Assembly: GCA_016870275.1 (NCBI GenBank)
Contig: VGBZ01000022.1
Location: 1 to 39,414, forward strand
DNA length: 39,414 bases
Reading direction: 5' to 3'
Source of the DNA: Actinomycetota bacterium
Lineage (GTDB): Bacteria > Actinomycetota > Acidimicrobiia > Acidimicrobiales > Microtrichaceae
Made by a program: the position numbers and the translations under genes. Shown here piece by piece: positions 1,309 through 39,414 of the stretch (positions within the stretch are counted from its first letter, which is position 1; the number at the start of each line of letters is the position of its first letter). The notes beneath the pieces are model-generated. The model was not told the origin of the DNA, searched no databases, and saw only the letters and a list, made by a program, of their open reading frames with translations.

Positions 1309-1314
1309 AGCGTA
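1309..1314 (-). promoter_or_regulatory. -10-like hexamer of the MscS gene
   Basis: TACGCT on the minus strand ends 7 nt before the GTG at 1301, so a transcript would start at or very near the start codon. No Shine-Dalgarno sequence sits at a usable distance. Inferred from position and from recurrence in the window. Confidence 0.5.
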
Positions 1315-1375
1315 GCGATGCCTCCTCGACGTGCCGGGGACCGACACCATCCACGGCACGCGTGTCGGGCGTCAC

Positions 1376-1381
1376 TACCGT
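1376..1381 (+). promoter_or_regulatory. -10-like hexamer of the GGDEF-EAL gene
   Basis: TACCGT is followed by 8 nt and then GTG at 1390. This suggests a leaderless transcript and favours GTG 1390 over GTG 1384, which lies too close to the hexamer. Confidence 0.5.
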
Positions 1382-1389
1382 AAGTGGCC

Positions 1390-3435
1390 GTGGCCTGGTT
1401 CCGAGCCCGCCGTGCACTCCTGGTGGATGAAGCACGCGCCCGAGCCGCAGCCGACCACGACGCCCTGCTCGACGCCGCTGGAATCGTCCTCGTCCGGGAG
1501 CAGAGCGTCTCACCGTCCATGACGGCGGCGTTCGGCTGGGATCACGAGTCGTTCCAGATCCCGGGGACGCTCCGTGGGCTCGTGCACCCCGACGACACCG
1601 AACGCTTCGACAAGCTCGAACAGCAGGTGATGGTCCGGCTCCTCGCCTCCGACGGCTCGTACCGGCCCGCGCTCGTTCTTCGTACCGTCACCCACGACCT
1701 CCTCGTCGACCTGAGCCGGCACCGCAGCCACCTCGAGGAGACGACACGCCACGCCGAGGTGGTCGAGCACTCTCCGAACGGCGTGGCCGTGTTCGAGTTC
1801 ACCGACCTGAGCGATCCGGAGTCCATGGTCCTGCGATCTGCCAACCCTGCAGCGCAACGACTCCTGCACCTCGAGCACCACTCGCCCGACGGGACGCGAC
1901 TCGATGAGATCCTGACCCGACCCTCGGCTCGGTTGGTGAGCTCGGTGGCGTTCGACGTGGCCCACACGGGGCAGTCGCTGACCGCCGAGCGCCTCACGTT
2001 CAGCGAGCTACCCGACTCCTGGATCGACGTGAGAGTCGACCGACTCGCCGACGGGTCGCTCGCAGCCACGTTCAGCGACGTGACCAAGCACGTCGTGACC
2101 GAGGAGGGACTCCGCCACCGAGCCGGACACGACGCCCTCACCGGCCTGCCCAACCAGTCGATGCTCGAGGACCGACTCGCCGTGCTCACCGCCGAACTCC
2201 TCACCGGAAGGCACGTGGCCCTCGTCCTCGTCGACGTGGACTGCCTCGCCGAGGTCAACGAGTCCCTGGGGCATCGGCTCGGTGACCGGTTCGTCGTGGA
2301 GGTGGCCAACCGGCTCGCCCGCAACGTCGTGGGCGCCGAGTTGATCGCCCGGACGGGCAGCAGCGACTTCGCTGTCATCACCCGACCCGCTGACACCCGG
2401 GCCGAGACCATGGAGCGGGCCCAGTCGGTGGCCGAGGCGCTCGAGACGCCCATCGACGTGGACGGCCACCTGCTCACCGTGCAGGCCCGCCTGGGCGTGG
2501 CGATCGCCCCCGGGCACGGCTCCGACCCGAGGACGTTGCTGCATGCTGCTGAGGCCGCCCGGCGCCAGACCCGTCCGGTCGTACCGGTCGACTCGAGCGA
2601 ACCGACCGAGGGGCTCATCGCCAGGCTCCGGCGGGGCCTCGCCGATCAGGACCTCGAGGTCCGTTACCAACCGATCGTCGAACTCCGGACGGGGCGGGTT
2701 GCCAAGGTGGAGGCGATCCTGCGGTGGCGACGTTCCGATGCGCGCAGCGGTCCGTCGGAGCTGCTCGAGCTCGCCGAACAGTCAGGTCTGGTCCGCGAGC
2801 TCACCCGTTGGATCTTCAGCGAAGCGGCACGGGCGGCCCGCACGGTCTCCGGGGCGGACCGACCCACCCGGGTGTGCGTCAACCTTCCGCTCGCCGCTCT
2901 CGCCAACTCCGACATCCTCACGTTCGTCGACCTGATGATCACCGCTGGGGAACTCGACTGTGAACGGATCGAAATCGAGGTCGCAGAGAGCGAGCTCGCC
3001 GCTGACGCCGTGCGCGCCCAACTCGTCGCCGGACGATTGAACTCACTCGGTATCCGGATGGTCATCGACGGATTCGGAACGGGTTACACCTCGGCGTCCA
3101 CCCTCGAGCACCTGTTGGTCCGCGGCATCAAGGTCGACCGGAGCTTCATCTCGACGCTGGCAGCGGTGCCCGCAGACCTCGTGGCGGTCTGTTCCACCGT
3201 CGAGCTCGCCCACGAGCTCGGACTGACCGTCGGAGCCGAAGGTGTCTCCGACAGCGCCTCGCTCGACCTCCTCGCCGGCGCCGGATGCGACTACGCCCAG
3301 GGCTTCCACATCTCCGGGCCCGTCACCCTCGAGGCGCTGGCCAAGCGGACGAGCGAACTCGAACAGGCCATGGGGAGTTGGTCGACGTCGCTAACGTCCG
3401 GGAGTGACCACGTCCCAGGCCAGTTCGGCGGCTGA
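1390..3435 (+). CDS. GGDEF-EAL domain protein with degenerate active sites
   Basis: The protein has 681 residues. A PAS-like N-terminal part (about 120-240, ending in a DVT segment) precedes a GGDEF domain (about 245-400, opening with DALTGLPNQ) and an EAL domain (about 405-660). The family makes and breaks cyclic di-GMP. Here the GGDEF signature reads GSSDF, so cyclase activity is unlikely. The EAL motif reads EAI, which is tolerated. The normal DDFG metal-binding pair reads DGFG, losing the second aspartate. The EAL-domain Asn (VCVNLP), Glu (VAES), Lys (GIKVDRSF) and late AEG remain. It is probably a c-di-GMP or GTP sensor, or a weak phosphodiesterase. No transmembrane segment is visible. 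GTG 1384 is an alternative start. Confidence 0.88.
   Translation: MAWFRARRALLVDEARARAAADHDALLDAAGIVLVREQSVSPSMTAAFGWDHESFQIPGTLRGLVHPDDTERFDKLEQQVMVRLLASDGSYRPALVLRTVTHDLLVDLSRHRSHLEETTRHAEVVEHSPNGVAVFEFTDLSDPESMVLRSANPAAQRLLHLEHHSPDGTRLDEILTRPSARLVSSVAFDVAHTGQSLTAERLTFSELPDSWIDVRVDRLADGSLAATFSDVTKHVVTEEGLRHRAGHDALTGLPNQSMLEDRLAVLTAELLTGRHVALVLVDVDCLAEVNESLGHRLGDRFVVEVANRLARNVVGAELIARTGSSDFAVITRPADTRAETMERAQSVAEALETPIDVDGHLLTVQARLGVAIAPGHGSDPRTLLHAAEAARRQTRPVVPVDSSEPTEGLIARLRRGLADQDLEVRYQPIVELRTGRVAKVEAILRWRRSDARSGPSELLELAEQSGLVRELTRWIFSEAARAARTVSGADRPTRVCVNLPLAALANSDILTFVDLMITAGELDCERIEIEVAESELAADAVRAQLVAGRLNSLGIRMVIDGFGTGYTSASTLEHLLVRGIKVDRSFISTLAAVPADLVAVCSTVELAHELGLTVGAEGVSDSASLDLLAGAGCDYAQGFHISGPVTLEALAKRTSELEQAMGSWSTSLTSGSDHVPGQFGG
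3392..3397 (+). promoter_or_regulatory. -10-like hexamer inside the preceding gene
   Basis: TAACGT lies 6 nt before GTG 3404 and inside the last codons of the GGDEF-EAL gene. The downstream gene could therefore be transcribed separately as a leaderless message despite the overlap. Confidence 0.45.
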
Positions 3436-18599: not shown

Positions 18600-18705
18600 T
18601 CGCCGACTCCCGTTTCGTGGCCCGTCCCGTGCGGACGAGCGCCATCGGCTCAACGTAGCGGAACCGTCGTCGAACGGACAGGGCCACAACTGCGATCATG
18701 GACCC

Positions 18706-20010
18706 GTGAGCAGACGTCCCGGTCCCCGCACGGCGATCGTCCTGGCGGGTGGCGGCTTCAAGGCGGCGTTCGAGCTCGGAGCCTTCCGCCATCTCGCCGA
18801 GCACCACGACGTCGTCCCCGACGTGATCACCGCCACCTCGGCCGGGGCGATCCTCGGGACCGTGGCCGCCCAGGCCAGAACCCCGGCCGAACTCCTCCAC
18901 CGGCTCGATGAGGCCGACGGCGACCTGATGGCGATGACGCAGATCGACGTCGTGTTCGGCGAGCAGCCCTGGCTCCGCGAACTCGACGGCACCGAGGCCG
19001 CTGAGCGGATCCGCGCCCTGATCACCGGTGGCGCGCCCGACTCGAGCGGCAACGACGAAGGGCACCACCCGTTCCGAGATGCGATCGAAGTCGCCCGTCG
19101 ACTCCCCAGGGCGCACAGCGCCAGTTCCGACCCGAGGGATCGGGGCATCTTGAACCTCGACCCGTTCGAGGCGGCGCTGCGCGGGAAGACCGATGTGGGC
19201 GTGGCGTCGCTCGATCCGGTATGCGTCGCCCGTGACGGACTCGACCTCCGTCTGGCCACGACCCATTACAAGGCTCGCGCCACCCACTACGTGACCGGAA
19301 ACGCCGAGCTGCTCGACTCCGACGCCCGCACCCCGGTCGCCGACGCCGGCCACTTCGACCTGATCGACGGGCTGATCGCATCGGCGAGCGTCCCCGGTGT
19401 GTTCCCGGCGCGCCGACTCGGTTCGTCCGAGTACGTCGACGGCGGCGTGCTCGCCAACATCCCGCTCGCAGCTGCCGCAGCGCTCGACCCCGGGCGAATC
19501 TTCACGCTCGCAGCCTCACCCGTACGGGAACCAGCGCATCGGGCCGTAGCGCAGGCAGCAGAAGGTCTGGGCTACCTCGCCACGCAGGTCCACAACCTCG
19601 CCGTGCCGCTTCCCGACGGCTGCACCAACACGCTGATCCAACCGTCGATGCTCGTCGTCGACACCTTCGAGGTGCACCCCGGCCGGATGCGCATCGACAT
19701 CGACTACGGGTGGCTGCGCGCCCAGGAGACCGTCGCCGACCTCGACGAGGGAGCCGGACCGATCCTCTCTGCAGCCACCGACACGATCATCGGTCTCCGC
19801 CAACAGGCCTGGGCGCTCGAGAAGCAACTGATCGAACACCACGACGGCGACCTGAGTCGACTCGCATCGATCAAGGGAGCGATTCGCTCGGCGCTCGCCG
19901 CCCGCTCGGCCATGGGATTCGAAGCACCCGAGTCCGCCGAGGACTGGGGGCACCGATGGGAGCGGCACACCGTGGCGAGGGGCGACGACCTCCCGGAGAC
20001 GTTCGACTGA
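18706..20010 (+). CDS. Patatin-like phospholipase/acylhydrolase
   Basis: The protein has 434 residues from GTG 18706. It shows the glycine-rich oxyanion loop VLAGGGFKAAFELGAF at about 12-26, the nucleophile serine in ATSAGAI (AxSxG where GxSxG is usual), and the catalytic Asp in VDGGVLANIPL. This is a Ser-Asp dyad lipase fold. Substrates are likely membrane or storage acyl lipids. No signal peptide is visible. The C-terminal 100 residues are helical and charged. Divergent from the dienelactone hydrolase gene. A weak GATCAT lies 6 nt before the start. Confidence 0.85.
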   Translation: MSRRPGPRTAIVLAGGGFKAAFELGAFRHLAEHHDVVPDVITATSAGAILGTVAAQARTPAELLHRLDEADGDLMAMTQIDVVFGEQPWLRELDGTEAAERIRALITGGAPDSSGNDEGHHPFRDAIEVARRLPRAHSASSDPRDRGILNLDPFEAALRGKTDVGVASLDPVCVARDGLDLRLATTHYKARATHYVTGNAELLDSDARTPVADAGHFDLIDGLIASASVPGVFPARRLGSSEYVDGGVLANIPLAAAAALDPGRIFTLAASPVREPAHRAVAQAAEGLGYLATQVHNLAVPLPDGCTNTLIQPSMLVVDTFEVHPGRMRIDIDYGWLRAQETVADLDEGAGPILSAATDTIIGLRQQAWALEKQLIEHHDGDLSRLASIKGAIRSALAARSAMGFEAPESAEDWGHRWERHTVARGDDLPETFD

Positions 20011-24643: not shown

Positions 24644-25270
24644 TCAGACTCCGGGCGACTCGCCGTGGTGTCGCAACCACGCCGTCATGGCGATACCCGA
24701 GGCCACCCCGACATTCACCGATCGGGTGGAGCCGTACATCGGGATGTGGCGCACCTCGGCGCAGGCCTCGAGTGCCTCCGGCGACAGTCCGCTGCCCTCC
24801 TGGCCGAACAGCAGGATGCAGCCGAGTGGCAACGGCCGGGCGTCGATCGGCACGGACCCGTCGACGACATCGATGCCGACGACTGCGAGGTCCAGACCGA
24901 CTGCAGTTGCGACGAGCGATCCCACATCAGGGTGGTGGTGTACGTGCAGGTACCGGTCGGTGACCATCGCTCCCCGACGGTTCCACTGACGGCGACCGAC
25001 GATGTGCACCGCCGCTGCGCCAAAGGCGTTGGCGTTCCGGACGACGGTTCCGATGTTCAGATCGTGTCGCAGGTTCTCGATGGCCACGTGGTAACCGAAG
25101 CGACGGGTGTCGAGGTCGGCGACGATCGCCTCGACTGACCAGTAGCGGTAGCGGTCGACGACGTTGCGGGTGTCGCCGCTCTCGAGCAGCTCCGGGTCGA
25201 GTCGCGGGTCCTCGGGCCACGGACGGGCGTGCGGTCCGACGCCGTGGGTTCGTCCTGCGTTGTCGGCCAC
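24644..25270 (-). CDS. TrmH/SpoU-family RNA 2'-O-methyltransferase
   Basis: The protein has 208 residues from GTG 25270. The three SPOUT motifs are present: NIGTVVRNANAFG (motif 1 with Asn and Arg), ILLFGQEGSGLS (motif 2) and PMYGSTRSVNVGVASGIAM (motif 3). The enzyme methylates a ribose 2'-hydroxyl in rRNA or tRNA using S-adenosylmethionine bound in a trefoil knot. About 45 N-terminal residues precede the catalytic fold. The longer open frame upstream overlaps the divergent cbiX gene and lacks support. TACGGT lies 8 nt before the start. The RNA target cannot be told. Confidence 0.88.
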   Translation of the reverse strand: MADNAGRTHGVGPHARPWPEDPRLDPELLESGDTRNVVDRYRYWSVEAIVADLDTRRFGYHVAIENLRHDLNIGTVVRNANAFGAAAVHIVGRRQWNRRGAMVTDRYLHVHHHPDVGSLVATAVGLDLAVVGIDVVDGSVPIDARPLPLGCILLFGQEGSGLSPEALEACAEVRHIPMYGSTRSVNVGVASGIAMTAWLRHHGESPGV

Positions 25271-25278
25271 CGTGGCGG

Positions 25279-25288
25279 ACCGTACCGT
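25279..25288. promoter_or_regulatory. Symmetric bidirectional promoter (TrmH / CbiX genes)
   Basis: ACCGTACCGT contains TACGGT on the minus strand (8 nt from GTG 25270) and TACCGT on the plus strand (6 nt from GTG 25295). They share the TA at 25283-25284. This is the second such overlapping element in the window. Confidence 0.5.
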
Positions 25289-25294
25289 AGCGAT

Positions 25295-25645
25295 GTGCCC
25301 GACACCGTTCTGTTGATCGCCCACGGAAGCCGGAACCCCGCAGCCCAGACCGACCACGAACGCCTCTGCGGATCGGTCGGAGCCGCTGCCGGGATCACGG
25401 TGCGCCCCGCCTACCTCGAGTTGGCCGAGCCGAGCATCACCGATGCCATCGACTCCGCCGTGGCAGACGGAGCCGCACAGGTTCGGCTGGTGCCGTTGTT
25501 CCTCCACACCGGGAACCATGTCGCTCGTGACATCCCTGAGATCGTCGAAGCCGCCCGGAGGGCCCATCCGGAGGTCGTGATCATCCTCGACGAGCACGTG
25601 GGGGCCGATCCGGCGCTGGTCGATCTGATCGCTGCGCGGATCTGA
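25295..25645 (+). CDS. cbiX: Sirohydrochlorin chelatase, short CbiX type
   Basis: The protein has 116 residues, the single-domain CbiX-S length, which works as a homodimer. LLIAHGSRNP holds the metal-binding His near the N terminus, and LVPLFLHTGNHVARDIP the second His pair. The enzyme inserts cobalt (toward B12) or iron (toward siroheme) into sirohydrochlorin. No other B12 or siroheme gene is adjacent, so the direction is unknown. The gene is leaderless by position and divergent from the methyltransferase gene. Confidence 0.85.
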   Translation: MPDTVLLIAHGSRNPAAQTDHERLCGSVGAAAGITVRPAYLELAEPSITDAIDSAVADGAAQVRLVPLFLHTGNHVARDIPEIVEAARRAHPEVVIILDEHVGADPALVDLIAARI

Positions 25646-29712: not shown

Positions 29713-29750
29713 ACGTGACGGAACTGGTGTGCTCGGCCAAGGATGGTCGG

Positions 29751-30383
29751 GTGATCCTGGTCATCGCCTCGTTGCTGGCGCTCCTGATCGGCCTGTCGCT
29801 CGGCGCCGTCGGCGGAGGCGGGAGCATCCTGGCGGTGCCCGTCCTCGTCAGCGTGCTCGGTTTGTCCGTCGAGGAGGCGACGGCCTCATCGCTGGTCGTG
29901 GTCGGCGTGGCGTCGCTCGTCGGCGTGCTGAGCCACGCCCGGGCAGGGCGGGTCGCCGTGTCGGTCGGACTCGGGTTCGCTGCAGTCGGTGTCGCGGGCT
30001 CCTATCTAGGCACCCGTCTGAACGAACGGATCGACGGCGACGTCCTGCTGCTGGGCTTCGCCGTCCTCATGGGCGTCGTGGGCACCCGCATGCTCCAGGG
30101 TCTGCGCCGCGCCGACTCGCTCCCGGTCGATGACGTCCCGCTCGGACGGCTGCGACCGGACCCCGTGGCCGGTGAGCGCTCAGCCGCCCTGCCGCGCTGC
30201 TCCGACGGTGCTCGCCTGCACCGCTACGTCAGCACCGTCACCGAGGCAGATCCGGTTCAGACGGCCCGAGGTCTGAGTGGTCACCCGTTCGGGTGGTGTT
30301 GCTCGCCGCCAAGGGAACTGTGGTCGGTTTACTCACTGGCCTGTTCGGCGTCGGAGGCGGGTTCGTCATCGTCTCGGCGCTGA
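29751..30383 (+). pseudogene. TSUP (TauE/SafE) permease, N-terminal fragment ending after a frameshift
   Basis: This is the first half of a TSUP anion exporter/importer (sulfite, sulfonate or thiosulfate). LLIGLSLGAVGGGGSILAVP is the conserved first repeat, followed by VEEATASSLVVVGVASLVGV and further helices. Start GTG 29751 has AAGGA 7 nt upstream. GTG 29715 is possible. Near 30290 the frame should pass into the second repeat, but the sequence TTCGGGTGG sends it into 30 unrelated residues and a stop at 30383. The continuation lies one frame back at 30293. Loss of one G in a GGG run explains this. A sequencing error is equally possible. Confidence 0.75.
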
Positions 30384-30664
30384 TCCTCGTGCTCGGCTTC
30401 CCCATCTCGATCGCCGCTGCCACCTCGCTGCTCGTGATCGCCATCAAAGCCGCAGTGGCGCTGATGTTCCGCAGCGGCTCGATCGCCGTCGACTGGGGCA
30501 TCGTCACCCCGTTCACAGCCGCAGCGATCGTCGGCGTCCTGGGCGGTCGTCGAATCGCCGACCGGGTACCGGCCCGCCAACTGACCGCTGCGCTGGGCGT
30601 CGGAGTCATCGTCGTGGGCCTCTGGACCGGCCTCGACGCTGCACGCAACCTCATCGCCCCATGA
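30293..30664 (+). pseudogene. TSUP permease, C-terminal fragment (other frame)
   Basis: This is the second repeat of the same permease. VVGLLTGLFGVGGGFVIVSALI mirrors the glycine-rich helix of the first half, followed by TSLLVIAIKAAVALMF and three more hydrophobic segments to the end (123 residues). GTG 30293 would be the first possible start in this frame, but with no Shine-Dalgarno sequence and no -10-like element it looks like the tail of a broken gene. Its stop overlaps an ATG (ATGA at 30661), so translation into the next gene was originally coupled. Confidence 0.75.
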
Positions 30665-30693
30665 CCACACAGACCAACCCCGGGAGCACCACC

Positions 30694-31953
30694 ATGATCT
30701 TCGAACAGCACTACCTCGACTGCCTCTCGCAGGCGTCCTACCTGATCGGCGACGAACGAACCGGTCGCGCCGTCGTGGTCGATCCGCGTCGAGACATCGC
30801 CGACTACCTCGCCTCGGCAGAAGAACACGGGCTCAGCATCGAGCTCGTGATCGAGACCCACTTCCACGCCGACTTCCTCTCGGGTCACCTGGAACTGGCC
30901 CGAGCGACCGGCGCCGAGATCGGCGTGGGCGCCGCCGGCCAACCGGAGTTCGCCCACCGCTCGCTGCACGACGGCGAACGCATCGAGCTCGGCGACGTCG
31001 GCCGACCGGACCTGCTGGCATCGGTGGGTGTCACCGCCGATGAGCTCGGCCGGTCGCTCTACCACTCGCTGCGCAATCAGTTCCTGACCCTGCCCGATGA
31101 CACGAAGGTGTTCCCCGCCCACGGTGCCGGCTCGGCGTGCGGCAAGCAGCTCTCGACCGAGACCGTCTCCACGATCGGCGAACAGCGGGCCACGAACTAC
31201 GCACTCGCAGCGATGCTGGTGGCGGAGTTCCTGAGCGTCGTCACCGAGGGTCAGCCCGCTGCACCCGGCTACTTCAGCTACGACGCCCAGCTCAACAAGT
31301 CCGAACGTCTGGTCTTCGACGAGGCCGCACCGGCAGCACCCCTGAGGCTCGATGAGGTGCTGGCCCACCAGGCCAGGGGTGCTGTGGTGATCGACACCCG
31401 CGACGCCGCCACCTTCGCCGCCGGCCACCTGTCCGGTTCGATCAACGTGGCGCTCGACGGACGGTTCGCCGAGTTCGCCGGATCGGTTGCGCAACCCAGT
31501 GACACGCTCGTGGTCGTGACCGAACCGGGCGACGAACGAGAGGCCCGCGTGCGACTGGCCCGGATCGGCTTCGACCGTCTGGCCGGGTTCCTCGCCGAGC
31601 CGTATCGACAGCTCGTCGAACACCCCGAACTGATGCGACAGGCCTCTCGTCTCACCGCTGAGGAGTTCGTCCGCAGGTGCAACAGCGTGCCCGGTCTCCG
31701 GGTGATCGACGTCCGGACCCACGGGGAACACTCGCTCGGCAGCGTCCCGGGCGCAGACGTCGTCCCGGTCGCCGAGCTTCGTGACGAGGTGGCGCACCTC
31801 TCAACAGACCTCGACGCACCGGTCGTCGTGTTCTGCGCTGGCGGCTACCGCTCGTCGCTGGCGGCGAGCCTGCTCCGTGCACACGGGTTCACCGACGTCT
31901 CCGACGTGCTCGGCGGCTACGGCGCATGTGAGCCCCTCCTGACCGCCGACTGA
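30694..31953 (+). CDS. Persulfide dioxygenase-rhodanese fusion (CstB/BLH-like) with internal deletion
   Basis: The protein has 419 residues. Family members pair an ETHE1-type metallo-beta-lactamase domain (oxidises persulfides to sulfite) with two rhodanese domains. Seen: THFHADFLSGH (His56, His58, Asp60), PAHGAGSACG (140-149), a Cys-less first rhodanese (about 215-305), and a second with active loop CAGGYRS (Cys381). At residues 98-105 the text jumps from IELGDV straight to GRPDLL. The TPGHT...GDTLF segment that normally lies between, with the His and Asp iron ligands, is absent. ATG 30694 has GGGAG at 7 nt and matches the usual MIF start. ATG 30661 overlaps the TSUP stop. Confidence 0.87.
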   Translation: MIFEQHYLDCLSQASYLIGDERTGRAVVVDPRRDIADYLASAEEHGLSIELVIETHFHADFLSGHLELARATGAEIGVGAAGQPEFAHRSLHDGERIELGDVGRPDLLASVGVTADELGRSLYHSLRNQFLTLPDDTKVFPAHGAGSACGKQLSTETVSTIGEQRATNYALAAMLVAEFLSVVTEGQPAAPGYFSYDAQLNKSERLVFDEAAPAAPLRLDEVLAHQARGAVVIDTRDAATFAAGHLSGSINVALDGRFAEFAGSVAQPSDTLVVVTEPGDEREARVRLARIGFDRLAGFLAEPYRQLVEHPELMRQASRLTAEEFVRRCNSVPGLRVIDVRTHGEHSLGSVPGADVVPVAELRDEVAHLSTDLDAPVVVFCAGGYRSSLAASLLRAHGFTDVSDVLGGYGACEPLLTAD

Positions 31954-31969: not shown

Positions 31970-32006
31970 TCACGTGGCGGAGATGCGTGTGGCCCGCCTC
32001 ACGTGA
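31970..32006. terminator. Possible bidirectional terminator hairpin between convergent genes
   Basis: TCACGTGGCGG pairs with CCGCCTCACGTGA, leaving a 13-nt loop and a 2-nt bulge. It lies between the converging sulfur operon and hexuronate operon and reaches the end of the GH4 coding region. There is no U-tract, so termination is uncertain. Confidence 0.3.
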
Positions 32007-33366
32007 ACTGAGGCAACCACTCCGACGTGGCGTCGAGCATCTCGTCGGTCATGCGAGCGACGGCGTCGTAGTCGATCCGGCCGGCGAGTGGATCGAGGAG
32101 CATCGCATCGAGCACGAGTGACCTGTCGCCGTTCACCGCAGCGCTGACGACGAGCTCCTGGGATGCGCTGACCCGTCGAACCTGCTCGGCGAGCACCGGC
32201 GGCAACGCAGCCACATCACGGCCTCGTACGCCGTCGCTGTCGACGGTCACGATGCTCTCCACCACGACGTCCGCCGGCAGATCGCTCACCTGGGTCGCAT
32301 TGGCGATGTTCAGAGGGAGGTGACGGACCTCGCCACCGATCAGGGAGTCGATGATCGCAGCCACGAGCTCGCCGCTCGGCTCCGTGGGGAGTTCCTCGGC
32401 GGACCGCAGCCGGTCGAACTCCCCGAGGTAGTGCGAGAGCCACTGCCGACGGTCATCCATGGATGTCAGATGGACACCCCAGCGGCCGCCCCACTCGGAC
32501 TCCTCGGTGAGGAAACCGGCGAAGAACTCGACGAGGTGACGGTCACCGGCAGCCGGCAGCACACCGAACCGCTTGAACATCTCAGCCTTGACGAGATTCG
32601 AATCGAGCAGCGAACCGACGGTGAAGAGTCCACCGAGACTGACCGCCTCGTGACCGGCGGTGGCGGGGATCACGAGCGGCTGCTCGAGCGCTTCTGGATC
32701 GTCGAGCAGCGCGCGCAGACGCTCGAGGCCGTCCTCGCCGTCGACGTCGAGTTGGGTGATGAACGGCAGGTGGTTCACCCCGGCAACGACGGGCCGCAAC
32801 GCAGCAGCCTCCCGCCCGAGGAGCATGGACAACGTGTGGAGGGTGATCGTCACTTCGTGACACAGTCCGATCGCCCGGATCGACGTCTCCTTGAGCACCG
32901 CACGCGTGAGGGTCGTCATGGGATTGGTGAGGTTCAACAACCACGCATCGCCACACCAGCTCTCCATGTCCCGGGCAATGCCGAGCATCACCGGGATGTT
33001 GCGGAGGCCCCGAACGATCCCGCCCGGACCGACCGAGTCGCCGACGGACTGACGGATCCCGAAGCGCTCGGGCACAGCGATGTCGTGGTGCATCGAGTCG
33101 AGGGCGCCCGTGGAGATGCACACGACCACGAAGTCCGCACCGTCGAGCGCCTCACCCTGGTCCGTCGTCCCTGTTGCGGAGAAACCGATTCCCCGCACCG
33201 CAGCGATGTGGTGGACGAACTCGACCATGTCCGGGATCGGCCGGGGATCGATGTCCTGAATGACGATGTGGGCTCCGGCGAGGCTCGGAGTATCGGCGAT
33301 GTCGAGCAGGAGCTTCGGGATCCACTGGTAGGACCCGCCCCCGATGAAGGTGATCTGCGGGCTCAT
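31999..33366 (-). CDS. Glycoside hydrolase family 4, probable alpha-galacturonidase
   Basis: The protein has 455 residues. GH4 enzymes use NAD+ and a divalent metal in a redox-elimination mechanism. Visible are the Rossmann start ITFIGGGSYQWIPKLL, the substrate loop NLTNPM (Asn148), CHEV (Cys169-Val172, metal ligands) and GVNHLPF (Asn198, His199). GH4 activity follows the residues after Cys: CHS for alpha-gluco/galactosidases, CNVP for 6-phospho-beta-glucosidases, and CHEV for alpha-galacturonidases such as Bacillus LplD. It would release galacturonate inside the cell, matching the adjacent catabolic genes. It starts 28 nt after the KDG kinase and has TACGCT 8 nt before its ATG. Confidence 0.85.
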   Translation of the reverse strand: MSPQITFIGGGSYQWIPKLLLDIADTPSLAGAHIVIQDIDPRPIPDMVEFVHHIAAVRGIGFSATGTTDQGEALDGADFVVVCISTGALDSMHHDIAVPERFGIRQSVGDSVGPGGIVRGLRNIPVMLGIARDMESWCGDAWLLNLTNPMTTLTRAVLKETSIRAIGLCHEVTITLHTLSMLLGREAAALRPVVAGVNHLPFITQLDVDGEDGLERLRALLDDPEALEQPLVIPATAGHEAVSLGGLFTVGSLLDSNLVKAEMFKRFGVLPAAGDRHLVEFFAGFLTEESEWGGRWGVHLTSMDDRRQWLSHYLGEFDRLRSAEELPTEPSGELVAAIIDSLIGGEVRHLPLNIANATQVSDLPADVVVESIVTVDSDGVRGRDVAALPPVLAEQVRRVSASQELVVSAAVNGDRSLVLDAMLLDPLAGRIDYDAVARMTDEMLDATSEWLPQFT

Positions 33367-33374
33367 GGCGCCGA

Positions 33375-33380
33375 AGCGTA
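33375..33380 (-). promoter_or_regulatory. -10-like hexamer of the GH4 gene
   Basis: TACGCT on the minus strand lies 8 nt before ATG 33366, so GH4 may have its own leaderless transcript besides operon read-through. Confidence 0.42.
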
Positions 33381-33394
33381 ACAATCGCTCGTGT

Positions 33395-34267
33395 TCACTC
33401 CGGCCAGAGGAGCCCGCCGCGGTGGGCAACGGCCTCGGCGGCCACAGCATGGGCGGCAACCACCGACTCGGGTAGGCCGAAACCACGAAGTCGATGGGCG
33501 AGATAGGCGGCATCGAAGGCGTCACCGGCGCCGGTGGTGTCCACCACGGCAGTCGCCATCGTGGGGACCTCCACGCGGCCCGAACGCCCATCGCCGTCCC
33601 ACCAACGGGTCGGCGCCTCCCCGTCGGTGACCACCAACTCGGGGACGGACGATGCCAACTCCTCGGGTGGCTCGCCGAGGGCGTCGAGATCCTCGCTCGA
33701 TGCGAGGACCACGTCGGCAGCGGCGAACACCGCCCGGGTCCACCGTCGCGTCGTGTCGGGTGAATCCCACAGCGCCTGACGGACGTTGGGATCGAACACG
33801 ACGAGCGACTCAGTGGTGCAGAGCACCTCGAGGAGGGCGTCACGCTGGGGATCGTCGAGCACGGCCATGGTGATCCCGCTGACGAACACGGCGTCGACGG
33901 TGCCGACGGCGAGAGCCAGCGACTCAGGTCCGAGCAGGTCGACGAGCTCTCGAGCGGGGCTGTTCGCCCGCCAGTAGGTGAACCGGCGTTCGGTGCCGTC
34001 GAGTTCGACGAGGTACACGCCGAGTGCGCCGGTCGGGCGGGAGCGGATCAGGTCGGCACCGATCGCCTCCCACTCCAGGCGCTCGAGCAGACCGCGACTG
34101 AAGCTGTCCTCTCCGACGGCGGTGGCGAGATCCACCGACACCCCGTTGCGTGCGAGCTGAACCGCCACGTTGAGGGCGTCGCCGGAGTAGGACACGTCGA
34201 GGGCCCCGTCGGTCCGCAATCGGAGCTCAGCGAGCGGCTCCCCCACCACGATCACCGATGGCGACAT
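33395..34267 (-). CDS. kdgK: PfkB-family sugar kinase, probable 2-keto-3-deoxygluconate kinase
   Basis: The protein has 290 residues of the ribokinase/PfkB fold. VVGEPLAELRL opens the fold, GDALNVAVQLARNG is the first PfkB signature with substrate contacts, and DTTGAGDAFDAAYL (catalytic Asp249) is the second. It phosphorylates KDG to KDPG with ATP. The assignment rests on position between KDPG aldolase and GH4 and on the GDALN motif common in KDG kinases. Start ATG shares its A with the aldolase stop (TGATG), showing coupled translation. Fructokinase is the alternative without the context. Confidence 0.88.
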   Translation of the reverse strand: MSPSVIVVGEPLAELRLRTDGALDVSYSGDALNVAVQLARNGVSVDLATAVGEDSFSRGLLERLEWEAIGADLIRSRPTGALGVYLVELDGTERRFTYWRANSPARELVDLLGPESLALAVGTVDAVFVSGITMAVLDDPQRDALLEVLCTTESLVVFDPNVRQALWDSPDTTRRWTRAVFAAADVVLASSEDLDALGEPPEELASSVPELVVTDGEAPTRWWDGDGRSGRVEVPTMATAVVDTTGAGDAFDAAYLAHRLRGFGLPESVVAAHAVAAEAVAHRGGLLWPE

Positions 34268-34896
34268 CACCCGGGTCGGACCACGTCGAGCGCTGCGGCG
34301 ACGGCCGCCTCGACGTCGGCCCCGCTGTCGTCGGTGGCCGCCGCAGAGAACATCCAACTCCCACCGACCGCCACGACACCGGGCACATCGAGGTAGGCCG
34401 GTGCGGAGTCGGCGTCGATCCCACCGGTGGGAACGAGACCCACGCCACCGACCACGGCACTCAGTGCCCGGAGGTGAACCGGGCCACCGAGAACGCCGGC
34501 CGGGAAGATCTTGAGGACCCCAGCACCGGCGTCACGCAGGGACAACACCTCGCTCGGAGTGGCAGCACCCGGCAGCCATGGAGCACCGGCGGTCACCACC
34601 GCAGCGATCAACGACGGAGTGGAGCCGGGACTCACCAGGTACGCCGCCCCGGCCCGTCGGGCCGCAACCACGTCGTCCGGGTCGACGACGGTGCCGGCAC
34701 CGACCGGGATCGACACCGACTCGACCGCCGCCCGCAACGCCTCGAGGCTGCGGCCGTGACGAAGGCCGATCTCCACCGTCGGCGCACCTGCGCGCTCGGC
34801 CGCCAGCGCCGCGCGGCGAACCACGTCGGGATCGGGGTGGTCGATGAGCGGAAGCAGGCGGCTCCGGAGAACCGCTTCCGGAAGCGGCGTGATCAC
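34267..34896 (-). CDS. eda: KDPG aldolase (2-dehydro-3-deoxy-phosphogluconate aldolase)
   Basis: The protein has 209 residues, a class I aldolase of the TIM-barrel KDPG/KHG family. Glu42 and Arg46 in EIGLRHG, the GAGTV and SPG loops, PGAATPSE, and the Schiff-base Lys129 in LKIFPA match Eda positions. It splits KDPG to pyruvate and glyceraldehyde-3-phosphate, the final step of this pathway. The GTG start overlaps the stop of the reductase gene (GTGA), and the stop overlaps kdgK. This tight packing supports a single polycistronic message. Confidence 0.93.
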   Translation of the reverse strand: MITPLPEAVLRSRLLPLIDHPDPDVVRRAALAAERAGAPTVEIGLRHGRSLEALRAAVESVSIPVGAGTVVDPDDVVAARRAGAAYLVSPGSTPSLIAAVVTAGAPWLPGAATPSEVLSLRDAGAGVLKIFPAGVLGGPVHLRALSAVVGGVGLVPTGGIDADSAPAYLDVPGVVAVGGSWMFSAAATDDSGADVEAAVAAALDVVRPG

Positions 34897-36269
34897 GGCT
34901 TCCCCTCTCGGTCGATCGCCTCACCGAGCGTACGCCGCCAGCCGGCGTCATCCCGAAGCCGAACGGGGGCGAAGCCGTCGAGGTCCATGAGCGCCCCGCC
35001 GAGCGCAAACGGGTCGGTGGTGGACCGGACGAGCGCCGAGAGCTCCTCGGCGCGGGGGTCCTGCAGCTCGGCGGCGGGCGTACGGCGGAGGTGGGCGACC
35101 CACCATGCCAGCGTGGCGCTGAGTGTGTCGACCGACGATCCGGCGTCGAGAGCGTCGGCGATGGTGGGCAGGATGCGCTGGGGCAGCTTGACCGACCCGT
35201 CCATGGCGATCTGTTGGCACCGGTGACCGATCGCCGGGTTGGTGAAGCGGTCCCGCACCGATGCGGCGTACGCACGAGCATCGGTTCCGGCGGGCGGAAC
35301 GAGTACCGCCTGGATCTCCTCGCTGAGCGCATCGATGCGCACTGCGGCCGATCGATCGCCGACCACCTCGTCGATGGTGGAGTGGCCGAGTCGCAGGCCG
35401 AGGTAGGCGCTCGCCGAGTGCAGGCCGTTCAGGACCCTGAGCTTCATCCGTTCCCACGCCGCCACATCGGAACTGAGTTGGACGCCGGCCTCGGCGAGCG
35501 CCGGAACACCCGGGCCGAGGCGGTCCTCGAGCACCCACTGACGGAACGGTTCGGCGATCACCGGCCAGGCGTCGACCACTCCAGCGGCCGACACCTCCTC
35601 CCGCAACTCATCTGTCGTCGCCGGGACGATGCGGTCGACCATCGAGTCGGGAAACACCACGTTGCCGGCGATCCAGCGGGCGGTGTCGGCATCGACGTGG
35701 GTTGCGAACTCCTCGAGGAGCCCGGCGAGCATCGTCCCGTTGCCGGAGACGTTGTCACAACACGCCACGGTCAACGGTCCTGCGCCGGCCCGACGCCTGG
35801 CGTCGAGACCGGCGAACAGGGTGCCGACGACCCCGACCGGCGAGCGAGGGGAGGCGAGGTCGTGCGCCACGGCAGGATGCTGGACGTCGAGTTGCCGTCG
35901 CACCGGGTCGAAGCCGTAGGCCTTCTCGGTGACCGTCGTGGTCACCAACGTGGTCGACGGAGCGGCCAGCGCCGAGAGCACCTGATCGCGCCTCGAGGGA
36001 CCGACCACATCCACCAGCACACCAACCTGTCGGAGGCGATGACCGGCGGCCGACACCTCGACGACCGTGTATCGACCCTCTTGGGATCTCAGCGCCTCAG
36101 GGACGGCCTCGGAGGTCATCGAGGTCCCCAGCACACCGACGTCCTCGGACCCGGCGGTGGCGAGGTCGTCGAGGAACGTCAAGAGGTGCGCCCGGCTGAA
36201 CGCACCGAGTCCGAGGTGGACCACGGAGATCTGCAGCGCCTCCCGGTCGTAGCCGATGGGCTCGATCAC
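34893..36269 (-). CDS. Mannitol dehydrogenase-family hexuronate reductase (UxuB-like; tagaturonate reductase role)
   Basis: The protein has 458 residues, a long-chain polyol dehydrogenase. VVHLGLGAFSRAH at the N terminus is the NAD(P)-binding loop, VTEKAYGF is the family block, and KLRVLNGLHSASAYLGL carries the catalytic Lys-Asn-His set. By sequence style it is closer to fructuronate reductase UxuB and mannitol dehydrogenase than to classical UxaB. Since the cluster has altronate dehydratase and no mannonate dehydratase, it must supply altronate by reducing tagaturonate. GTG 36269 was chosen as the first in-frame start after the uxaC stop, 7 nt away. Confidence 0.85.
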   Translation of the reverse strand: MIEPIGYDREALQISVVHLGLGAFSRAHLLTFLDDLATAGSEDVGVLGTSMTSEAVPEALRSQEGRYTVVEVSAAGHRLRQVGVLVDVVGPSRRDQVLSALAAPSTTLVTTTVTEKAYGFDPVRRQLDVQHPAVAHDLASPRSPVGVVGTLFAGLDARRRAGAGPLTVACCDNVSGNGTMLAGLLEEFATHVDADTARWIAGNVVFPDSMVDRIVPATTDELREEVSAAGVVDAWPVIAEPFRQWVLEDRLGPGVPALAEAGVQLSSDVAAWERMKLRVLNGLHSASAYLGLRLGHSTIDEVVGDRSAAVRIDALSEEIQAVLVPPAGTDARAYAASVRDRFTNPAIGHRCQQIAMDGSVKLPQRILPTIADALDAGSSVDTLSATLAWWVAHLRRTPAAELQDPRAEELSALVRSTTDPFALGGALMDLDGFAPVRLRDDAGWRRTLGEAIDREGKP

Positions 36270-36276
36270 GGCCGAT

Positions 36277-37710
36277 TCACAACCGATATGCACGTCGGGC
36301 CAGACCGACGGCGCAGTCGACCACGAGTTCGCCGGCCGCATCCTCGTCGAGGCGGTGCTCGGCGGTCAGCGTCGCCAGGTAGGCGCAGTCGACTCGTCGG
36401 GCGACGTCGTGTCGGGCGGGGATCGACAGGAACGCCCGGGTGTCATCGTTGAACCCCGCGGTGTTGGCGAAGCCCGCCGTCTCGGTGACTGCGCGCCGGT
36501 AACGCCACATGCCCTCGACACTGTCGAAGAACCACCACGCCGGTCCGAGCGTCAGGCACGGGTAGAAGCCGGCCAGCGGTGCGAGCTCGCGTGCGTAGGC
36601 CGATTCGTCGAGCGTGAACACGATGATGCGCAGACTGCGCTCGAGGCCGAAGCGATCGAGCAGCGGACGCAGCGCATCGACGTAGTCGGTGCGGCCGGGG
36701 ATGTCGGCACCCTTGTCCCGACCGAAGCGAGCCAGCGTCGCCGGACTGTGGTTGCGGCGCGATCCCGGATGCAGTTGCAGGACCATGCCATCGTCGAGAC
36801 TCATCGCCGCCATCTCCACGAGGATCTGGCCGCGGAACAACTCGGCGTCACCCGGCTCGATCGTGCAAGCGAGCGCCCGGTCGAGCAACCTCTGACAGAG
36901 GGCTGGATCCAGGTCGGCGGTCACGGCGCTCGGATGGCCGTGGTCGGTGGCGGTCGCCCCACGCTCCCGGAAGTACTCCCGGCGACGCCGGAGCGCCGCC
37001 AGGTACCCGCTGTAGGAGGTGACGTCCTCACCGGTGAGGTCACCGAGTCGGGCAACGTTGGCTGCGAACCCATCGAAGTCGGGATCGACCACCGGATCAG
37101 GCCGGAACGTCGTAACGACCCGCTCACCCCACCCATCGGCGATCAGACGATCGTGGTGGGCCAGATCGTCGAGCGGGGATTCGGTGGTCGCGAGCAACTC
37201 GATGCCGAACCGTTCGAACAACGCCCGGGGCCGGAACTCCTCGGTGGCGAGGGCTCCGTCGATCCGGTCGTAGTAGACGTCTGCGGTCTCTGATGAGAGT
37301 CGGACATCGAGGCCGAACACCGTGGCGAAGGTGTGGTCGAGCCAGAGACCGGACGGCGTGCCACGGAACAGGTGCGCGTGCTCGGCGAACGTCCGCCATG
37401 CCGATCGAGGGTCGGCGGTCTGCGAGCCGTCGAGGGGCTGCACACCGAGGTCCTCGAGCCGCACGCCCTGGCTGTGCAGCAACCGGGTCAGGTAGTGGTC
37501 CGGCGTGACGAGCAGTTCGGTCGGGTTGGAGAACGGCTCGTCGAGAGCGAACCACGACGGATCGGTGTGGCCGTGAGGGGAGATGATCGGCAGATCGGCG
37601 ACCAACTCGTACAGCCGCCGGGCGATCGAGCGCACGGTCGGGTCAGGGGGGAACAGTCGATCCGGGTGCAACTCGAGTACGAGAGCACCGCCGTTGTCTC
37701 GTTCCGACAC
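36277..37710 (-). CDS. uxaC: Glucuronate/galacturonate isomerase
   Basis: The protein has 477 residues, the usual length of UxaC in the amidohydrolase superfamily. The metal site begins with SPHGHTDP (His46, His48). FFDSVEGMWRYR and HPGSRRNHS are family blocks. It converts D-galacturonate to D-tagaturonate (and glucuronate to fructuronate). First gene of a five-gene minus-strand operon. Its GTG start is 8 nt after TACGAT, and it is divergent from uxaA, 28 bp apart. Confidence 0.94.
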   Translation of the reverse strand: MSERDNGGALVLELHPDRLFPPDPTVRSIARRLYELVADLPIISPHGHTDPSWFALDEPFSNPTELLVTPDHYLTRLLHSQGVRLEDLGVQPLDGSQTADPRSAWRTFAEHAHLFRGTPSGLWLDHTFATVFGLDVRLSSETADVYYDRIDGALATEEFRPRALFERFGIELLATTESPLDDLAHHDRLIADGWGERVVTTFRPDPVVDPDFDGFAANVARLGDLTGEDVTSYSGYLAALRRRREYFRERGATATDHGHPSAVTADLDPALCQRLLDRALACTIEPGDAELFRGQILVEMAAMSLDDGMVLQLHPGSRRNHSPATLARFGRDKGADIPGRTDYVDALRPLLDRFGLERSLRIIVFTLDESAYARELAPLAGFYPCLTLGPAWWFFDSVEGMWRYRRAVTETAGFANTAGFNDDTRAFLSIPARHDVARRVDCAYLATLTAEHRLDEDAAGELVVDCAVGLARRAYRL

Positions 37711-37718
37711 GGACGGCG

Positions 37719-37731
37719 ATCGTAGTACCGT
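37719..37731. promoter_or_regulatory. Head-to-head -10 elements of uxaC and uxaA
   Basis: TACGAT (minus strand, 37724-37719) and TACCGT (plus strand, 37726-37731) are separated by 1 bp, 8 and 7 nt from their GTG starts. Both promoters must reach into the opposing coding sequence, so polymerase binding is likely exclusive. No clear operator palindrome is visible. Confidence 0.5.
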
Positions 37732-37738
37732 CGTCGCG

Positions 37739-39232
37739 GTGACCCGGTCCGTGCAGTCCGATCACGCCCGCACCGAAGCTGTCAGGTTGCACCCCGGTGA
37801 CGACGTACTGATCGTCGTGGCCGACGGCGCAGCAGCACCGCCGGGCCACAAGGTCGCCGCCCGATCGATTGCTGCCGGCGAGCCCGTCCGAAAGAGTGGA
37901 CACATCATCGGGGTGGCTCTGGAGGACATAGCCGAGGGCGACCACGTCCACGTCCACAACCTCGCCAACCCGGACCAGTCCATCGATGACTCGGGTCGAC
38001 ACCCCCAGAACCCCGGCGAACGACCCCTCGTCCGGGCGCCGACCGACGGCGTCACCTTCGACGGGTACCACCGTGCCGATGGTCGCGTCGGCACCCGCAA
38101 CCACCTCCTGGTCCTACCGAGCGTCAACTGTTCGGCAACGGTCTCACGGGTGATCGCCGAACGGGCCCGGTCCCGACTTCCCGCCAACGTCGACGGCGTC
38201 TGGGCGCTCGGTCACCAGGGGGGATGCGGAATCCCTGCGGGAGGGATCCAACTCGACCGCCTCCGCCGGGTTCTCCGGGGGTACGCCACGCACCCCAACA
38301 CCGGGGGCGTCCTGTTCGTCGGACTGGGCTGCGAGGTCAACCAACTCGACGAACTGACCGCCGACCTGCCCGCAGAACGACTCCGCTCGCTGTGCATCCA
38401 GGACGTCGGCGGCACAACAGCCGCCATCGACGCCGGCGTGAACGAGGTGCTGGCGCTCGCAGACGTCGCCGACGCCGACCGTCGACAGCCGGCACCGATC
38501 TCGGCGCTGGTGCTCGGACTGCAGTGCGGTGGTTCCGACGGCTTCTCGGCGATCAGCGCCAACCCGGCTCTCGGAGCGGCATCGGATCGACTCGTCGCTG
38601 CCGGCGGAACGGTGCTGTTGTCGGAGACCCCCGAGCTGATCGGTGCGATCGACGAACTTGCCGGACGGGCATCGGATCCGGTGGCGGCCGAGCTCCGCCG
38701 GCTCGCTCGGTGGTGGATCGATCACGCCGCAGCGCACCGAACGACCCTCGACGCCAACCCATCGCCGGGCAACCTCGCCGGCGGCATCTCCACGATCGTC
38801 GAGAAGTCGATCGGGGCCGCCGCCAAGGGAGGCACGTCGGCGCTCGCCGCTGTGGTGCCGTACGCCCAACGGCCGTCGACCACCGGGCTCGTCGTGATGG
38901 ACTCCCCCGGCTACGACCCGGTCTCCGCCACGGGACAGATCGCCGCTGGGGCACAGGTGGTGTGCTTCACGACGGGTCGCGGGTCGTGCTTCGGCTCGAT
39001 TCCCGCCCCGGCGGTGAAGCTGTCGACGACCTCGGACCTCGCCCGACGGCTACCCGACGACATCGACGTCGACTGTGGTGGCGTGCTCGAGGGAACAGCC
39101 ACCACAGACGAAGTGGGAGCGTTGATCCTCGACACTGTCATCGAGGTGGCGTCGGGTCGGCCGACGTGTTCGGAACGGCTCGGCTACGGACTCGACGAGT
39201 TCGCACCGTGGTCCGACGGGGTCACGCTCTGA
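37739..39232 (+). CDS. uxaA: Altronate dehydratase
   Basis: The protein has 497 residues, full length with an N-terminal SAF domain (about 1-85, VRLHPGDDVLIVVADG) fused to the catalytic part. Conserved cysteine blocks NCSATV, HQGGCG, GLGCE, QCGGSDG and FTTGRGSCFGS are those of UxaA/GarD, iron-dependent dehydratases. It converts D-altronate to 2-keto-3-deoxygluconate. GarD (galactarate dehydratase) is the close alternative, but uxaC next door supports UxaA. Divergent from the rest of the pathway. Start GTG lies 7 nt after TACCGT. Confidence 0.92.
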   Translation: MTRSVQSDHARTEAVRLHPGDDVLIVVADGAAAPPGHKVAARSIAAGEPVRKSGHIIGVALEDIAEGDHVHVHNLANPDQSIDDSGRHPQNPGERPLVRAPTDGVTFDGYHRADGRVGTRNHLLVLPSVNCSATVSRVIAERARSRLPANVDGVWALGHQGGCGIPAGGIQLDRLRRVLRGYATHPNTGGVLFVGLGCEVNQLDELTADLPAERLRSLCIQDVGGTTAAIDAGVNEVLALADVADADRRQPAPISALVLGLQCGGSDGFSAISANPALGAASDRLVAAGGTVLLSETPELIGAIDELAGRASDPVAAELRRLARWWIDHAAAHRTTLDANPSPGNLAGGISTIVEKSIGAAAKGGTSALAAVVPYAQRPSTTGLVVMDSPGYDPVSATGQIAAGAQVVCFTTGRGSCFGSIPAPAVKLSTTSDLARRLPDDIDVDCGGVLEGTATTDEVGALILDTVIEVASGRPTCSERLGYGLDEFAPWSDGVTL

Positions 39233-39261
39233 TTCCTGCCGGCAGCAGTCCGACCGGAGCC

Positions 39262-39414
39262 TCAGCCGGGATGCAGGATGACGTTGGACGTCCCGGCCCG
39301 CCAGTCGAAGACACTGCCCCGACGCACGGCGCTGGCCGGACCGGTAGCGGTCGTTGTCCGGAACTCGACCGTGGCCCGATCCGGGGTGCACTCCATGACG
39401 CCCACGCCACGGCG
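39262..39414 (-). CDS. C-terminal end of an unidentified protein (gene runs out of window)
   Basis: The last 50 codons of a minus-strand gene are open to the window edge and end 29 nt from uxaA. The visible tail, GVGVMECTPDRATVEFRTTT followed by VFDWRAGTSNVILHPG, reads as beta strands with an FDWRAG turn. It resembles the C terminus of PhoD-like alkaline phosphatases (Y-V-x-x-x-VTPDR-x-x-A-x-F), but this is a weak resemblance and I would not name it on this basis. Confidence 0.5.
   Translation of the reverse strand, partial: RRGVGVMECTPDRATVEFRTTTATGPASAVRRGSVFDWRAGTSNVILHPG

Follow-up and report, generated by a model that had tools for sequence, protein, structure and literature searches.

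In-frame loss of two iron ligands from a persulfide dioxygenase-rhodanese gene beside a frame-broken TauE/SafE gene: a likely case of gene decay

In an uncultured actinobacterium, a gene for a persulfide dioxygenase (PDO) fused to rhodanese domains is missing 129 bp from the part that encodes its iron site, and the TauE/SafE exporter gene directly upstream of it is split over two reading frames. The two genes are likely a pair in decay, in which the PDO lost its activity after a deletion mediated by short repeats. A stretch of 129 bp would have been deleted between two short direct repeats, through replication slippage or a similar repeat-mediated event, and the product, left with one of three iron ligands, would no longer be able to bind iron properly or to oxidise persulfide. 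The TauE/SafE gene beside it, which would normally serve to export the sulfite made by the dioxygenase, is frame-broken as well, and a module for sulfane-sulfur oxidation and sulfite export would be in the course of loss, perhaps with the exporter going first, as the relaxed 3' half of its gene suggests. Both genes lie in the window, that is, the whole stretch of 39,414 nucleotides that was analysed. The PDO had been noticed in an earlier, sequence-only reading of the window; the frame change in the TauE/SafE gene (29715-30664) had been overlooked. The features concerned are as follows.

29715-30254, plus strand: 5' part of the TauE/SafE exporter gene, in the frame of ORF 29715-30383; PF01925 positions 3-113; 74% to the TauE of the relative G001.
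30255-30277, plus strand: interval of the TauE reading-frame change, from comparison with congeners and a codon-phase scan.
30278-30664, plus strand: 3' part of the TauE/SafE gene, in the other frame; PF01925 positions 129-235; 11 of 76 otherwise invariant positions replaced.
30694-31953, plus strand: PDO-rhodanese fusion ORF, internally deleted; 419 aa, protein P0001.
30856-30876, plus strand: THFHADF motif with His56, the sole iron ligand retained by motif; from alignment, with ligand roles as in excerpts of PMC6060420 and PMC12856154.
30989-31000, plus strand: deletion junction, where the 12-nt repeat TCGGCGACGTCG survives as a single copy; congeners have 129 bp (43 codons) more here.
31339-31926, plus strand: rhodanese region, residues 216-411 (bounds approximate), intact; PF00581 in two stretches; block means of pLDDT 73-97 (residues 211-419).
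31834-31836, plus strand: codon of Cys381, the Cys of the rhodanese active loop (FCAGGYRSS), which is kept; 108 of 109 loci have Cys here, the remaining one not covering the position.

The ORF at 30694-31953 starts with ATG, with GGGAG 7 nt upstream (30682-30686), and by its sequence it is a type III (CstB-like) PDO-rhodanese fusion, a family in which rhodanese-like domains follow a metallo-beta-lactamase (MBL) domain. The protein is 77-84% identical to its five nearest orthologs, and both sequence and fold indicate common ancestry. Its best solved relatives are 3tp9 (Alicyclobacillus) and 3r2u (Staphylococcus aureus), the latter presumably CstB; 3tp9 comes first in both phmmer (E 4.7e-66, in two pieces) and Foldseek. 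The named matches include many Acidimicrobiales MAGs, plus Mycobacterium and Streptomyces. Two of the homologous loci (L091 and L118) come from public records titled "MAG: Bifidobacterium breve", and their PDO genes resemble those of the Acidimicrobiales matches; the titles look doubtful. As for the marks of a type III PDO, the C-terminal rhodanese domains with the active Cys are present, and the 2-His-1-Asp iron site in a complete MBL domain is not, one of the three ligands being left by motif. Pfam detects Rhodanese as well as Lactamase_B, but the latter is covered only up to position 95 of 196, compared to a match that spans 3-196 in an intact relative (L040). The NCBIfam model for the bifunctional sulfur transferase/dioxygenase Blh (NF040641) gives 39.5 bits against a cut-off of 625; this score carries no weight on the deletion because the intact relative fails too (65.1 bits).

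At the site of the loss, the window residues read ERIELGDVGRPDLLASVG, with the frame unbroken and no stop. Alignment with the five nearest orthologs shows 43 residues (129 bp) to be absent as one block between two GDV codon triplets. TPGHT and LTGDTLF lie within this block, and the TPGHT His and the GDTLF Asp are two of the three iron ligands. The sequence-only reading was right about the in-frame loss of a metal-ligand segment and about the one His and one Asp ligand that went with it; its estimate of 50-60 missing residues was too high, the two GDV triplets being spaced 43 codons apart in four congeners (L004-L007) and in the more distant L008, and 41-47 among the other extracted relatives. 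A search of 61 genomes, own included, returned 30 loci, from which 29 relatives were extracted and aligned, and the segment is present in all of them. In the same search the window gene was matched as one piece, and its close orthologs gave a main match from residue 74-93 together with a separate N-terminal match. Both ligands are kept in every one of the 106 loci that cover the site, out of 109 homologous loci (L115, L118 and L119 do not reach it). These 109 are not all independent, with at least two contigs counted twice (L008/L040 and L027/L082), and the counts leave out three odd genes found afterwards, in the genomes G055 (contig C145), G110 and G118.

The ends of the deletion point to its origin. 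An exact 12-nt direct repeat, TCGGCGACGTCG, is present at both ends in L004 and L007, with its copies 129 nt apart; it is the only 12-nt direct repeat at a spacing of 60-299 nt in the gene of L004 and one of two such repeats in that of L007. The window junction holds one 12-nt copy, with the left flank of the first repeat and the right flank of the second, and this structure, read from the sequence, is what a repeat-mediated deletion leaves. A deletion between GDV-encoding repeats had already been put forward, rightly by this evidence, and the 9-nt repeat given for it, GGCGACGTC, is the core of the 12-nt one. The exact run of repeat at the deletion ends is 7 nt in L005 and L008 and 4 nt in L006, and the full 12 nt were therefore not necessarily present in the parent of the window gene.

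The roles of the lost ligands are taken from other PDOs. According to the excerpts of PMC6060420, the iron ligands of AcPDO are H57, H113, and D130, and little or no activity is left when H113 or D130 is mutated. The metal of PaPDO is coordinated by His71, His146, and Asp163 in the excerpted text of PMC12856154. In the window protein the ligands were assigned by motif rather than by alignment to AcPDO itself, and with the residue roles taken from PMC6060420, as excerpted, the gene has lost residues needed for the ancestral activity, which is one mark of a pseudogene. Structure prediction with AlphaFold2, from alignments of 30 and 29 rows (relatives from 29 of 80 loci), points the same way. The model of the intact L040 has a mean pLDDT of 85.1, and its strands 102-108, 117-123, and 131-137 fall in the stretch lost from the window protein. 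The model of the window protein has a mean of 77.7, with residues 96-112 and 144-155 below 50, and between 91 and 231 it has no strand as long as three residues. Compared to 3tp9 by Foldseek, the intact model reaches a TMq of 0.85 with an rmsd of 3.6, and the window model 0.70 and 5.7. As modelled, the lost piece includes three central beta-strands of the MBL core.

A product with one of three ligands and with three MBL strands gone should therefore neither bind iron properly nor oxidise persulfide. Taking the residues and the models together, the dioxygenase activity of the window PDO has probably been lost, in line with the possible inactivity first suggested. One could suppose that the deleted enzyme still works, for example as a dimer with ligands from another subunit or with a weak iron site, since AcPDO H57A retained 6% of activity and the D130 variants 0.5-2% (PMC6060420, excerpts). 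However, those variants change single ligands, whereas the window protein lost two ligands and three strands, and no complementing intact copy was found in the window genome; a working enzyme of this kind is highly improbable.

The window genome (G000) is a 3.2-Mb draft in 137 contigs, 96.3% complete. An intact PDO-rhodanese copy was not found elsewhere in it by protein search, and neither was the missing segment by protein search or by DNA search, in which the best E was 0.003, for short stretches only. Its other matches to the PDO-rhodanese are two single-domain MBL proteins and one rhodanese-like stretch (C3:48206). The nearest solved relatives of the first MBL protein (L039, contig C8, 3134-4234) are ETHE1-type PDOs, with E about 1e-23 to 1e-22, and it also resembles GloB, below the cut-off. 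Going by this likeness it might supply some persulfide oxidation, but it is not a special replacement since it is present in all seven relatives searched. The second (C3:81868) is GloB-like, below the cut-off.

In a draft, one has to ask whether the gene is intact in the organism and the assembly or library simply skipped 129 bp. Other drafts do break in the PDO gene. In the 395 genomes sampled from the class, of which 89 (own included) match at E 1e-40 or better, only G118 besides the window gave a single listed match across the junction, and its gene (L180, contig C15) has two N at GDTLF and about 20 residues missing, which is an assembly scar near the same site. The G099 locus holds 200 N, its match jumping from residue 49 to 239; contigs of G336, G247, and G258 end inside the gene; and a second match in G005 covers only residues 1-34. 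The fragmentation of the window genome into 137 contigs would also suit such an artefact. On the other hand, the repeat shared in relatives is at most 12 nt, too short for the usual k-mer join by assemblers. Also, the window contains no N, the missing piece does not turn up elsewhere in the assembly as protein or DNA, and the neighbouring TauE lesion bears its own sign of age. An assembly error is thus unlikely.

That sign of age comes from the two halves of the TauE gene. The gene is a single open frame in G001, G003, G005, and G019 (the G004 copy lies only partly within the stretch compared); in the window, no one open frame runs across the PF01925 domain. When positions invariant among three congeners and an outgroup are considered, the 3' half of the window gene has replaced 11 of 76, compared to 0 of 65, 2 of 67, and 0 of 65 in the three congeners, and the 5' half has replaced 5 of 88, compared to 2 of 85, 1 of 84, and 5 of 88. 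The pN/pS of the 3' half is 0.39-0.48 between the window and congeners and 0.17-0.29 among congeners; for the 5' half the values are 0.30-0.32 and 0.19-0.33. Relative-rate tests on the 3' half all lean in the same direction (15:9, 18:10, and 14:7) and are not significant (p 0.19-0.31). From these comparisons the break is taken as real and not very recent. The partnership itself has a precedent in S. coelicolor, in which the genes for PDO and TauE share a transcript and TauE probably exports the sulfite product (PMC7533328, in its excerpted part).

G001, G003, G004, and G005 served for comparison over the rest of the window, with G019 added for part of it. A codon-phase scan of substitutions over 38,684 of the 39,414 positions gave 28 phase segments with 27 changes between them, and when these were read against the ORFs by the author, 26 fell at gene boundaries and one inside a gene, namely TauE. 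Besides the PDO deletion, no break was seen in the window other than the TauE frame change. Poor sequence with many frame errors was considered and ruled out, given that 26 of the 27 changes are at gene boundaries. A suspected frame pair at 24954-25627 proved to be two genes, a SpoU methylase on the minus strand meeting a complete CbiX on the plus strand, and the other candidates outside TauE were read as antisense or cross-gene matches. Gaps of 26-32 aa against some relatives, in 1309-3432, 18655-20007, and 24650-25642, lie in variable or repeated linkers or vanish when another relative is used. With the rest of the window cleared by the phase scan and the gap checks, the two lesions found therefore stand side by side in one functional pair.

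Downstream, about 7 kb (31999-39232) separates the PDO gene from 39257-39414, a piece that directly follows the PDO in G001 (contig C73, 2000-2157). In G003 the matches to this block sit on another contig (C312). By eye, we take the block to hold GH4-type glycosidase, sugar kinase, and aldolase genes.

Among the matches listed from the 395 genomes of the class, the deleted form occurs in no other genome, and the lesion is known from one genome. Two further genes show how PDO genes can come apart.

G055, contig C145, complement of 1157-1948: second PDO copy (L201), an open frame of 263 aa; about 145 residues lost in frame.
G110, contig C22, 695-2013: PDO-rhodanese gene (L185) whose frame changes, with an internal stop and Arg substituted for the first ligand His.

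The intact PDO of G055, a genome of the same order, lies on contig C328. In its second copy LVLET runs into WSTMADQ, and both the MBL active site and the rhodanese Cys loop are gone in frame. Without the Cys loop this copy cannot be a usual rhodanese, and the in-frame gutting of a PDO gene can therefore be simple decay. The G110 gene, judged by its stop, its His-to-Arg substitution, and its frame change, is an independent pseudogene. TauE was not found in the 3.4 to 7 kb stretches around the G055 and G110 genes, so a joint loss of PDO and TauE is not a general rule. A homolog that naturally does without the segment would have spoken against a loss, but no plausible working one emerged from the genomes sampled: the G055 copy is degenerate, G110 has its internal stop and frame change, G118 has NN at an assembly gap, and G099 has its 200 N. 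No PDO with a loss of this kind was recognised in the literature searched.

Alternatively, the deleted protein may have been retained as a sulfurtransferase, in which the MBL remnant serves as a scaffold or as a surface for interactions. The sequence-only reading had allowed for such a repurposing, and it is possible insofar as the rhodanese part is intact, with an open frame, the active Cys in place, and well-predicted domains; further positive evidence was not found, and the TauE break and the G055 copy favour decay. The remaining PDO looks constrained. Its pN/pS is 0.20-0.31 in pairs with the window and 0.16-0.32 among relatives, and it keeps its start and Shine-Dalgarno sequence with no stop. 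This speaks against decay, which is invisible in the PDO beyond the deletion, though the pN/pS and the stop-free frame would be as compatible with a recent deletion as with a retained function. At positions common to the other five genes, the window PDO has 11 replacements of its own; each of the four congeners has 2-5, and L008, which is more distant, has 21.

A difference between the two parts of the protein would be expected if the MBL part alone had been released. With the tree fixed, the branch leading to the window measures 0.088 for the MBL part (0.012-0.047 in the four congeners) and 0.153 for the rhodanese part (0.097-0.139), which is about 2.9-fold and 1.3-fold, respectively, the mean of the four congener branches by the author's ratio. 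Of the eight MBL relative-rate tests, two are significant, both with L008 as the outgroup (10:1 and 12:1, p <0.02, for two of four congeners), but none of the four with L009 is (8:3, 6:4, 9:6, and 7:7), and one of the eight rhodanese tests is significant too (none of four with L008, one of four with L009; 11:2, p <0.05). The MBL part may be freer, as L008 suggests and L009 does not, and the pattern of rates equally fits a recent deletion on which selection is not yet acting. Since the exporter next door is broken and the G055 sister copy, through in-frame losses, is without both its MBL site and its rhodanese Cys loop, decay is favoured over repurposing, which also has to account for a form absent from the other listed matches in the 395 genomes. 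A new role for the protein is accordingly rather unlikely.

A more specific version holds that the gene became a pseudoenzyme in one step: a rhodanese with a metal-free MBL remnant that would pass sulfane sulfur on its Cys but not oxidise it to sulfite any more, with the sulfite exporter, by then of no use, lost alongside. We regard this as quite unlikely. If true, persulfides would no longer be oxidised in this cell and would instead be retained, as a store of sulfur or as a signal.

In the best reading, then, the event is small and is ordinary gene decay, with the rhodanese pseudoenzyme as its one interesting possibility. In the window, nature has cleanly knocked out a conserved iron site and left the remaining protein in frame, beside the loss of a partner exporter. 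If real, it would allow close relatives that do and do not oxidise persulfide to be compared readily, and it would be a warning as well: an annotator going by overall similarity (84% to relatives that have the full site) would label the window enzyme functional.

Set against known systems, the window PDO is like the degenerate duplicate of G055 in its in-frame internal loss of an active site between open flanks. Unlike G055, which has an intact gene on C328 and a broken copy without the Cys, the window genome has no detected intact PDO-rhodanese and keeps the Cys. With the type I and II PDOs (ETHE1, 4chl; Myxococcus xanthus ETHE1, 4ysb; PaPDO, 9g8t), the protein shares half an MBL fold and the first ligand His, and unlike PaPDO with its His71, His146, and Asp163 (PMC12856154, excerpts), it retains one of three ligands. 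It is closest to the type III PDO-rhodanese fusions (3r2u, the Alicyclobacillus 3tp9, and S. coelicolor SCO0618/ScPDO) in its domain order, and it shares with the solved ones the GDVGRPDL- and HGAGSACG-type motifs and the rhodanese domains. The gene also adjoins TauE, as in Streptomyces (PMC7533328, excerpted part). It differs from these fusions in that the TPGHT-GDTLF segment, with two iron ligands and three predicted strands, is gone and the TauE beside it is broken.
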